In this document: positions 28,499 to 60,373 of the stretch, piece by piece | Layout: every line of letters starts with the position of its first letter | How positions within the stretch are numbered: position 1 is the stretch's first letter | Origin: Sulfurivirga caldicuralii | GTDB lineage: Bacteria; Pseudomonadota; Gammaproteobacteria; Thiomicrospirales; Thiomicrospiraceae | Direction of reading: 5' to 3' | NCBI RefSeq assembly: GCF_900141795.1 | Contig: NZ_FSRE01000003.1 | Span: forward strand, 1 to 64,000 | Length of the DNA: 64,000 bases | Notes under the pieces: generated by a model | Database searches by the model: none | The model's input: only the letters and a program-made list of their open reading frames with translations | What the model was told of the DNA's origin: nothing | Made by a program: the position numbers and the translations under genes

Positions 28499-28526
28499 GG
28501 GGGCGCATTCGTGCCCCCTTGTTTTT
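28499..28526 (+). terminator. Terminator after hpf
   Basis: Stem GGGGGCGC/GTGCCCCC with a 4-base loop, followed by TTG and seven T residues. Confidence 0.9.
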
Positions 28527-28594
28527 TTCTGACGTGCCCCCATCTCTGCACTTTATGAATGCCTTAAAATACACGCGCACTAAAAGGATACCGC

Positions 28595-29968
28595 ATGTCA
28601 GAAATTACCCTAACCCCGGAACAGCAGGAACAGCTCATCGAAGACATTCTCGAAGCGGCGCAAGAGAAGGATGTCCTGCGCACCGAGAAGCTGCTGAAGG
28701 AGCTGGTGCCTGAACAGATCGCTCAGCTGCTGGAAACCACACCGCCCGAGCTGCGACATTTCATCTGGGAGCATGTGGAACCTGAGCATCACGGCGAGGT
28801 GCTGGCGCACCTGAACGAGGAAGTGCGCACCAAACTCCTCGAAACCCTCAATCGCGAGGAGATCGAGGAGCTGGCAGAAGAGCTGGAAACGGACGATCTG
28901 GCCGATATCGCCCAGTCCCTCTCCGATGAAAACAAGGCTATCCTCCTCGAAGCGCTGGACGAGGATGAGCGCGTCGCCGTGGAAACCGCCATGTCCTATC
29001 CGGAGGACACGGCCGGCGGCCTGATGAACTCCGACGTCATCAGCGTGCGGGGGGACGTCACCATCGAAACCGTGATGCGCTACCTGCGCCAGCTGGGTGA
29101 ACTGCCCGACAACCTGCTGGAGTTGATCGTACGCGACCGTCACAACCACTATCTGGGCGTGGTCAAGCTCTCCGATCTGCTCACCCACGAGGAAGACACG
29201 AAGATTGAAGAGTTGCTGGATGCCTCCAAACCCGCGGTGCTCGTGCTGACACCCGCCAAGGACGTGGCCAAGCTGTTCGAGCAGAACGACTGGGTCGATG
29301 CGGCTGTGGTGGACAGCGACAACCACATCCTCGGCCGCATCACCATTGACGATGTGGTGGACATCATCCGTGAAGAGGCTGAGCACGCCCAGATGGCGCA
29401 GGCCGGTCTTGATGAAGATGAAGACATCTTCACTCCCCCGCTGGTTTCAGCGCGCCGTCGCGCCTTCTGGCTGGGGATCAACCTGCTGACTGCCGTTTTT
29501 GCAGCCTGGGTGGCCAGCTTCTTCGAAGACACCCTCGACAAGATCGTCGCCCTGGCACTGATGATGCCCATTGTCGCCAGCATGGGCGGTATCGGCGGCA
29601 CACAGACAGCCACCATCATCATTCGCGCCATGGCCAAGGGCGTCCTCTCGGGACCCAACATGCGCGCGCTGATTCGCAAGGAAATTCTGGTCGGTACGCT
29701 CAACGGGCTTTTCTGGGCATTGGCTACTGGTGCCTTCGCCTGGTGGTGGTTCGGCGACGCCCTGCTCGGCTTCGTATTCGGTGCCGCCATTTTTATCAAC
29801 CTGGTGGCCGGCGCGGTGGCGGGCGCGCTTATCCCGGTAATCCTCGATCGCTTCAAGATCGACCCGGCCTTGGCATCTGGCCTGATGCTCACCACCGTCA
29901 CCGACACCATGGGCTTTTTCGCCCTGCTCGGTCTGGCGACGGTCATCATTCTGCGCCACAGCGTATAA
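28595..29968 (+). CDS. mgtE: Magnesium transporter MgtE
   Basis: MgtE is a homodimeric, Mg-gated inner-membrane Mg channel. The 457-residue protein has an acidic N-terminal domain (residues 1-130), two CBS domains (about 135-260; for example DNHILGRITIDDVVDIIREE) and five C-terminal membrane segments. These include LMMPIVASMGGIGGTQTATI and LASGLMLTTVTDTMGFFALL, the Mg-path region. It is flanked by terminators on both sides, so it is a single-gene transcript. AAAGGAT precedes the ATG. Confidence 0.95.
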   Translation: MSEITLTPEQQEQLIEDILEAAQEKDVLRTEKLLKELVPEQIAQLLETTPPELRHFIWEHVEPEHHGEVLAHLNEEVRTKLLETLNREEIEELAEELETDDLADIAQSLSDENKAILLEALDEDERVAVETAMSYPEDTAGGLMNSDVISVRGDVTIETVMRYLRQLGELPDNLLELIVRDRHNHYLGVVKLSDLLTHEEDTKIEELLDASKPAVLVLTPAKDVAKLFEQNDWVDAAVVDSDNHILGRITIDDVVDIIREEAEHAQMAQAGLDEDEDIFTPPLVSARRRAFWLGINLLTAVFAAWVASFFEDTLDKIVALALMMPIVASMGGIGGTQTATIIIRAMAKGVLSGPNMRALIRKEILVGTLNGLFWALATGAFAWWWFGDALLGFVFGAAIFINLVAGAVAGALIPVILDRFKIDPALASGLMLTTVTDTMGFFALLGLATVIILRHSV

Positions 29969-33683: not shown

Positions 33684-33821
33684 ACTGGTTTCTCCTTTGT
33701 ATCAACAGCGACGACAGGAAAGCCTGCCGACTAATTCTTCTGTCCCTTTTCCCCTTTCGCGGGAAACGGGGAATTATAATCTATCTTTATTTATAAGCGC
33801 ATGATTTTTGCCGGGATATCC

Positions 33822-34817
33822 ATGAAAAACGCCGAGTACCACGAAATTCCACTGGAAAACCTGTCCCTGAAGGTACGCAACGCCCAGATGCCGAAAGGGG
33901 CTTACAAGACCAAGGCGCTCAAGCACCGACCCGACCCCGAAGCGCCGCGCCTGCCCAAGCCCCGCTGGATCCGCGCCAAACTGCCGCAGGCGCAGCATAT
34001 CGGCCGTATCAGCGAAATCAAGCAAACGCTGCGCGAGCATGGCCTGCACACCGTGTGCGAAGAGGCCACCTGCCCCAACCTGGCGGAATGCTTCGGCAAG
34101 GGCACGGCCACCTTCATGATCATGGGCGACGTCTGTACGCGCCGCTGCCCCTTCTGTGATGTGCGCTACGGCCGCCCCCACCCACTGGATGAAAAGGAAC
34201 CGCTCAAGCTGGCCGACACCATTGCCGCCATGGGGCTGCGCTATGTGGTCATCACCTCGGTGGACCGCGACGACCTGCGCGATGGCGGCGCTGCACACTT
34301 CAAGGCCTGTGTCGCAGCTGTACGCGAACGCTCGCCCGACACCCGCATCGAAATTCTTGTGCCCGACTTCAAGGGCCGGCAAAAAGTCGCGTTGGACACG
34401 CTGGCGCAGTGCCCGCCCGATGTGTTCAACCACAACCTGGAAACCGTCCCCCGCCTCTATGAAAAAGCACGCCCGCAGGCAGACTATCAGGGCTCGCTCA
34501 ACCTGCTGGCCCGATTCAAGGAGCGCTTCCCCGACATCCCCACCAAAAGCGGCCTGATGGTCGGTCTGGGCGAAACGCTTGAGCAGCTGGTGGACGTGAT
34601 GCAGGACCTGCGTGCCCACGGCGTGGAGATGCTCACCGTGGGCCAGTACCTGCAGCCCAGCCCCTACCACCTTGCGGTGGAAAAATACTGGACACCGGAA
34701 GAGTTTGCCGAGATCGAACGCATCGGCTATGAACTGGGCTTCGATCACGTCGCTGCCGGTCCCATGGTGCGCTCCAGTTATCACGCCGACCTGCAGGCCG
34801 AAGCGCTCATTTCCTGA
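33822..34817 (+). CDS. lipA: Lipoyl synthase LipA
   Basis: LipA is a radical-SAM enzyme that inserts two sulfur atoms into protein-bound octanoyl chains, sacrificing its auxiliary [4Fe-4S] cluster, so it depends on the Suf system. The radical-SAM motif is CTRRCPFCD; auxiliary cluster cysteines are in [12 protein letters not shown], and the C-terminal RSSY motif is present. The 331-residue start at ATG 33822 has a weak GGGA site; an ATG at 33801 has none. No lipB is adjacent. Confidence 0.94.
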
Positions 34818-34900
34818 ACCAATCCGAGCCAGAACCCTTGTTTTGGCCGGCCTGAACCCCCATATTGACTGCAAACAGCACGCCCCGATTTTTTGCGCCC

Positions 34901-34922: not shown

Positions 34923-34939
34923 GTCAGAAGGAGGCAGAC

Positions 34940-35794
34940 ATGAATCAGCTACACGGATTTCTACTACAGGAACTGGATATTCGCGGCCAGCACGTGCTGC
35001 TGCAGGAAAGCTGGCGCGAAATGATCGCCGATCGCCACTACACCCCGGCTCTGCAGCGCCTGCTGGGCGAACTGACCGCCGTGGCGGTCTTTCTGGCCAA
35101 CGGGCTCAAGCACGAAGGCAAGGTGACGCTGCAGGTGCAGGGCCAGGGTCCCGTCTCCCTGCTGGTAGTGGAAGCCACCCATGATCTGGCGATCCGCGGC
35201 ATGGCGAAGACCCGAGAAGCGATCAGTGAAGAACTGGAAGGCATGGATGCCCTGCTGGGCGAAGGTCAGCTGGTGCTGACGCTCTACAACAGCGTCACCG
35301 ACCGCCACTACCAATCGTTCGTGCCGCGCCATGGCAACAGCGTGGCCGAGTCGTTCGAGCACTTTTTCAGTCAGTCCGATCAGCTGGACACCCGTCTGTG
35401 GCTGACAGCGAATGACCAGGCCGTCGGCGGCCTGCTGCTGCAGAAGATGCCAGAAGCCGACAAGAAGGACCCCGACGGATGGAGCCGCGTGGTGCATCTG
35501 GCGGAAACCCTCAAGGATGAGGAGCTGCTCACCCTACCGGCGCAGGAGCTGCTGCACCGCCTCTTCCATGAGGAAACAGTTGAACTCTATCCGCCGCGCG
35601 AGGTGCGCTACGAATGTACGCAGGACCGCGACCGCGTGCTGGCCGCCATCAAGGCCATGGGCGAAGAAGAAGTGCGCCGTATTCTCGAACAGGAAGGCGC
35701 CGTGGTCGTGCACAACGAACTGTGCAACTTCCACGTCAAGCTGGACGCCGCCGATGTGGATGCCCTGTTCAGCGCGGAGAAACCGCAGCAGTAG
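34940..35794 (+). CDS. hslO: Hsp33-family chaperone with incomplete zinc site
   Basis: Hsp33 is a redox-switched holdase activated when oxidation releases Zn from four C-terminal cysteines (CxC and CxxC). The 284-residue protein is Hsp33-like throughout: FLLQELDIRGQHV at the start, then ATHDLAIRGMA, LLLQKMP and LLHRLFHEE. But the zinc motifs read YECTQD and HNELCNF, so the second cysteine of CxC is Gln and the first cysteine of CxxC is Asn. I checked both codons in the DNA. Classical zinc-based redox control is therefore unlikely. A weak hairpin follows the gene at 35826-35847. Confidence 0.9.
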   Translation: MNQLHGFLLQELDIRGQHVLLQESWREMIADRHYTPALQRLLGELTAVAVFLANGLKHEGKVTLQVQGQGPVSLLVVEATHDLAIRGMAKTREAISEELEGMDALLGEGQLVLTLYNSVTDRHYQSFVPRHGNSVAESFEHFFSQSDQLDTRLWLTANDQAVGGLLLQKMPEADKKDPDGWSRVVHLAETLKDEELLTLPAQELLHRLFHEETVELYPPREVRYECTQDRDRVLAAIKAMGEEEVRRILEQEGAVVVHNELCNFHVKLDAADVDALFSAEKPQQ

Positions 35795-60328: not shown

Positions 60329-60354
60329 GGTTCGCCTGCTTGTTATTAACTCAA

Positions 60355-60373
60355 AAAGCCCCATGTGGGGCTT
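60355..60373 (-). terminator. Terminator after der
   Basis: Stem AAGCCCCA/TGGGGCTT with a 2-base loop and a TTTTTGAG tail on the minus strand. A second hairpin, CCACGCC/GGCGTGG, lies at 60381-60396. Repeat copy 7 is between these and the der stop. Confidence 0.75.

Follow-up and report, generated by a model that had tools for sequence, protein, structure and literature searches.

How is a chaperone switched on when two of the four cysteines of its zinc switch are gone? This question is raised by hslO in the 64,000-nucleotide stretch of Sulfurivirga caldicuralii DNA analysed here (the window), where an earlier note, made from the sequence alone, had described an Hsp33 homologue lacking two zinc cysteines in an otherwise intact open frame. 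The canonical protein holds zinc through four thiolates; when these are oxidised to disulfides, the metal is released and the linker unfolds, although mild unfolding is required in addition to the oxidation (PMC8282892; PMC4735815). The four cysteines have been called absolutely conserved (PMC4735815), completely conserved (PMC8282892) and fully conserved, with the second one missing in fewer than 10 of 1579 sequences (PMC7423844). A two-cysteine subfamily of bacterial Hsp33 was not described in the literature we searched, which was mainly that accessible without subscription.

The gene in the window is a complete and genuine Hsp33. hslO (34,940–35,794; this and all further features lie on the forward strand) starts with ATG, is preceded by GGAGG, directly readable as its ribosome-binding site (34,930–34,934), and encodes 284 amino acids. 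The Pfam family HSP33 (PF01430) covers residues 3–265 with 218.5 bits (cut-off 21.4), and the protein aligns over its full length with E. coli Hsp33 (1i7f), in agreement with the earlier description of an open frame and an intact remainder. The score for the NCBIfam HslO equivalog NF001033, 209.5 bits, is below the curated cut-off of 244. Both linker motifs as defined in PMC7423844 are present, TxxxxE as T190...E195 and RL(F/Y) as R207-L-F. A search of the genome returned this single Hsp33 match and no second, canonical copy.

In the alignment with the E. coli protein, "FKCTCSRER" faces "YECTQDRDR" and "MHCDYCGNHY" faces "VHNELCNFHV". The translated protein has no cysteines other than C226 (35,615–35,617) and C262 (35,723–35,725), which correspond to C232 and C268 in E. 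coli, while the zinc ligands C234 and C265 are replaced by Q228 (codon CAG, 35,621–35,623) and N259 (35,714–35,716). The CxC plus CxxC zinc site (C232, C234, C265, C268) is thus incomplete, as had been claimed, although the codon named as changed, 35,618–35,620, is that of the intervening threonine and the altered one is 35,621–35,623. Further zinc-binding cysteines, which could have refuted the claim, do not exist in the window protein, and we also rejected other cysteine or histidine residues as substitute ligands, as the nearby H258 and H265 are variable across the related proteins described below. Among those proteins the commonest extra cysteine is at position 79 (68 of 139), and none is general.

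Aligning the Hsp33s of close relatives, the check proposed in the earlier note, revealed that the loss is lineage-wide. Hsp33 is present in 62 of the 63 genomes of the order Thiomicrospirales, with Sulfurivirga, Hydrogenovibrio, Thiomicrorhabdus and Thiomicrospira among the carriers by name, and all 62 proteins have cysteine at 232 (E. coli numbering), a non-cysteine residue at 234 and cysteine at 268; position 265 is asparagine in 61 and falls on masked bases in one. Because the same two positions are altered in all 62, and because dN/dS of hslO is ~ 0.11 towards the nearest of two congeners (~ 0.30 towards the other), the chance of a sequencing or assembly error at 35,621–35,623 and 35,714–35,716 is practically nil; the order's other genomes come from independent projects. 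We also rejected a pseudogene reading, since all 62 carriers have an intact gene (split by masked bases in one) and hslO is under purifying selection.

The distribution beyond the order was assessed in 369 genomes of the window's class and in a scan of named public genomes. The canonical four-cysteine form is found in most families of this material, and the two-cysteine form also occurs in SUP05/Thioglobus-Ruthturnera, in a Nitrosomonas-type family (29 of 29 newly read loci) and in four further Burkholderiales families (f201, f224, f203 and f192), which were added by a two-cysteine profile search of the Burkholderiales-type order. We infer that the Nitrosomonas-type family (f176) is Nitrosomonas because tested members of its main genus carry one to three copies of amoA. 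Hsp33 in this family is restricted to one of four genera (g248), and some members of g248 lack it too. A phylum-wide sample yielded no high-scoring relative beyond the window's class, and a search for virus-borne Hsp33 copies found none. Of 316 distinct proteobacterial Hsp33s, 171 have cysteine at all four positions and 138 have C232 and C268 only, all of these with N or D at 265; one more such sequence contains masked bases. The rest are three four-cysteine proteins with a CxxC first pair, two cysteine-less proteins (W/S) and one with the residues A-I-C-T; among the 316 there is no further pattern with two or three cysteines. The CxxC proteins (L114, L120 and L124, from families f39 and f112) read CFGC, CNNC and CVGC, with the second ligand one residue further on. 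The A-I-C-T protein (L146, genome G119, family f58) has A at 232, I at 234, C at 265 and T at 268 and represents a separate cysteine loss outside the two-cysteine clade. The lineages encountered first were chemolithotrophs, but a link with autotrophy was rejected, as the RuBisCO large chain is encoded in 23 of 35 genomes with two- or zero-cysteine Hsp33 and in 19 of 31 with the four-cysteine form.

The scatter of the two-cysteine form over Thiomicrospirales, SUP05, Nitrosomonas and four other Burkholderiales families could be explained by several independent losses, or the form in this lineage by decay of a dispensable gene. We turn to trees calculated from N-terminal and linker columns only, in which the grouping is not driven by the redox domain since its columns were excluded. 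A quick tree of 91 rows united all two- and zero-cysteine rows in a single clade (SH-aLRT 100), and a careful tree of 61 rows split them from all four-cysteine rows at 100/100 support. This single clade and the identical two cysteines with the same N/D replacement everywhere speak against multiple losses, the intact genes and the low dN/dS to the nearest congener against decay, and both explanations are very improbable. Due to the 100/100 support without redox-domain columns, we consider the two-cysteine Hsp33s almost certainly a distinct, strictly conserved subfamily of single origin. The window protein, with C232 and C268, N/D at 265 and a non-cysteine at 234, lies inside the clade. The earlier note was thus right about a functional-looking Hsp33 without the canonical switch, whereas its framing as the loss in a single protein gives way to a monophyletic subfamily extending over the order and other lineages. 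Within the tree, one half of the clade holds Thiomicrospirales with SUP05 nested among them, and its sister half holds the Burkholderiales. Family f224 is mixed, with four cysteines in L338 and two in L276, L280 and L288. Spread of the two-cysteine gene by horizontal transfer would be the simplest reading, and both types in one family are expected from such replacement.

Two members of the clade have cysteine-less redox domains, L188:157-1005 (Zoogloeaceae MAG-184) and L289 (genome G904, family f201, a complete genome). In both, C232 is replaced by W jointly with C268 by S, and Hsp33 is open and intact elsewhere. As the two are sisters (support 99/90), the cysteine pair was lost once and jointly, and their existence shows that one sublineage, at least, can do without it.

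Elsewhere in the subfamily the pair is strictly kept. In 139 two-cysteine sequences, C226 and C262 show no variation and are among only 15 invariant columns out of 274 well-filled ones. Position 259 (E. coli 265) is N in 77 and D in 61, that is, N or D in every readable sequence. At position 229 (E. coli 235; D229 in the window protein, 35,624–35,626), where four-cysteine Hsp33s have S or T, all but two of the 139 have D, N or E; in 11 sequences, N occupies 229 as well as 259. The two-cysteine form further differs from the four-cysteine form by Y instead of F two residues ahead of C232 (position 230) and by S instead of G in the YQG/FQS motif. The mean conservation of the redox domain is 0.59 in two-cysteine and 0.60 in four-cysteine Hsp33s, a comparison whose region borders are displaced by 12 residues, which should make no material difference to it. 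Since C226 and C262 are strictly conserved together and lost together, they seem to share a role.

The AlphaFold2 model of the window protein (33 alignment rows) has a mean pLDDT of 94.2, with ten-residue block means of 88–95 over residues 221–280 and 47 for the final four residues; metals are absent from such models, and the fold of the redox domain may come from homology alone. Foldseek matched the predicted fold to B. subtilis Hsp33 (1vzy) over the full length (TM 0.87 over 296 columns) and further to T. maritima Hsp33 (1vq0) and the NMR structure of the E. coli redox domain (1xjh). The prediction is a closed three-part arrangement of N-terminal core, linker and C-terminal redox-switch domain (residues 221–284; 35,600–35,791). 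As this predicted fold fits that of reduced, zinc-bound Hsp33, the redox domain very probably persists without a Cys4 zinc site. In the model, helix 230–240 follows directly after residue 229, and residue 259 ends the strand 255–259, from which a turn leads to the strand 264–268. Helices are usually capped by S, T, D or N, and Asx can cap such a turn without metal; D229 is a likely helix cap.

What, then, can operate this domain? With the partner cysteines missing and two cysteines in total, within-motif disulfides cannot form. Because neither these nor a Cys4 zinc site are possible, the canonical switch, with zinc release and the disulfides 232–234 and 265–268, is almost certainly absent from two-cysteine Hsp33. 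With half of the zinc cysteines gone, the protein must be switched on otherwise. The best explanation, to which we assign a probability of roughly 45%, is a holdase gated by heat or unfolding, with a closed fold and C226 and C262 as a paired-thiol latch. The fold would be held by a hydrophobic core together with the Asx turn and helix caps (D229 and N/D259). C226 and C262 would face each other at the place where zinc would sit. In canonical Hsp33 one zinc is shared by the counterparts of both (PMC4735815), which should place the two close enough for contact, so that they could form one pair; that this is a metal-free thiol/disulfide pair we judge at slightly below even odds. The holdase would be gated mainly by heat or by unfolding of the metastable linker. 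Oxidation would create at most one C226–C262 bridge, which would staple two loops instead of forcing the domain open, so that the rule by which oxidant opens the chaperone would be lost or inverted. The more specific proposal that the Zn-Cys4 switch with its two disulfides gave way to one thiol pair between the loops, with heat opening the chaperone and oxidation holding it shut or doing nothing, is speculative, and we regard it as doubtful.

One could also suppose that redox control is gone completely, that the holdase is either constitutive or activated by heat or unfolding, and that C226 and C262 are merely buried packing residues. The impossibility of the canonical switch and the cysteine-less L188 and L289, open and otherwise intact, would agree with this. 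So would two precedents: an algal Hsp33 minus one cysteine is described in PMC7423844 as responding to milder stress without zinc binding, and the CnoX family has both bleach-activated and constitutive members (PMC6282202). If packing alone were at work, however, an occasional A, S or V would be expected, and both cysteines are invariant in 139 otherwise widely varying sequences and lost only together. We consider this explanation rather improbable.

The main rival retains a metal. The site could have been rebuilt in a Cys2Asx2 form that holds zinc or iron less tightly (C226, D229, N/D259, C262), in which thiol oxidation would free the metal and open the domain, so that redox control would survive at a different threshold. 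D or N at 229 and 259 is equally compatible with metal ligation, and the regularity of both positions, N or D at 265 in every readable sequence and the change from S/T to D/N/E at 235 in all but two, is in line with such a site. The position of D229 is probably reachable for a ligand, because the four-cysteine L114, L120 and L124 with their CxxC motif place their second cysteine exactly there. However, Asn is rarely a zinc ligand, and 11 sequences have it at both positions. A metal is also unnecessary to explain S, T, D or N at a position adjoining the predicted helix 230–240, as these are classic helix caps, and the neighbouring H258 and H265 are not conserved. We therefore think a rebuilt metal site unlikely and favor the heat- or unfolding-gated holdase with the thiol pair.

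The upstream region provides a candidate for heat control. Between lipA and hslO, a pattern search matched a putative sigma-32 (heat-shock) type promoter, CTTGTT-N15-CCCCATAT (34,837–34,865). Exact matches to this pattern number three in the 64 kb window against 0.20 expected; the other two are at 28,518–28,545, ~ 50 bases upstream of an open reading frame for an MgtE-like transporter (28,595–29,968), and at 60,339–60,366. Upstream of hslO, a match of this type scores 11–12 of 13 in all three congeners, with the -35 element in register and the -10 element roughly so, which suggests that hslO may be heat-induced in the genus Sulfurivirga. Outside the genus a heat-shock promoter as a trait of the subfamily was unsupported. 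In E. coli, too, hslO belongs to the heat-shock genes, and the match therefore does not separate the mechanisms. The upstream neighbour lipA (33,801–34,817), identified as a lipoyl synthase gene from a CxxxCxxC motif and from matching L151 and L152, precedes hslO also in Sulfurivirga L151 and Hydrogenovibrio L152. As a conserved partner of hslO it was rejected, because the two do not adjoin in SUP05 L175 or in UR.bin222 L187.

Hsp33 is a textbook chaperone with a zinc-cysteine switch, and a deep clade of single origin that keeps one cysteine per motif breaks its conservation rule. Many bacteria that oxidise sulphur or ammonia, and relatives of these, share the clade, and the automatic annotation of its members as redox-regulated chaperones is probably wrong in mechanism. 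If true, a latch that staples when oxidised would be an inversion of textbook Hsp33 logic. Nature also supplies Hsp33s with four, two and no cysteines, a series in which zinc, thiols and heat can be separated as contributors to activation.

Compared with the four-cysteine Hsp33s of E. coli, B. subtilis (1vzy) and T. maritima (1vq0), the window protein is alike in full-length homology, three-part architecture, linker motifs and predicted closed fold. It differs by the absence of C234 and C265, of the Cys4 zinc site and of within-motif disulfides, and by N/D at 265 and D/N at 235. A naturally incomplete zinc site is likewise known from Chlamydomonas HSP33 (Segal and Shapira 2015, cited in PMC7423844), in which only one cysteine was reported lost, in contrast to two in the bacterial clade. 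The trypanosome Hsp33 TrypOx is also divergent, with an altered linker and C-terminus, but it has the full set of four cysteines and a redox domain that is still a redox switch (PMC7423844). For different activation modes within one holdase family, the CnoX chaperedoxins are a precedent, with a bleach-activated member in E. coli and a constitutive one in Caulobacter (PMC6282202); CnoX is unrelated to Hsp33, and the likeness is one of analogy only.
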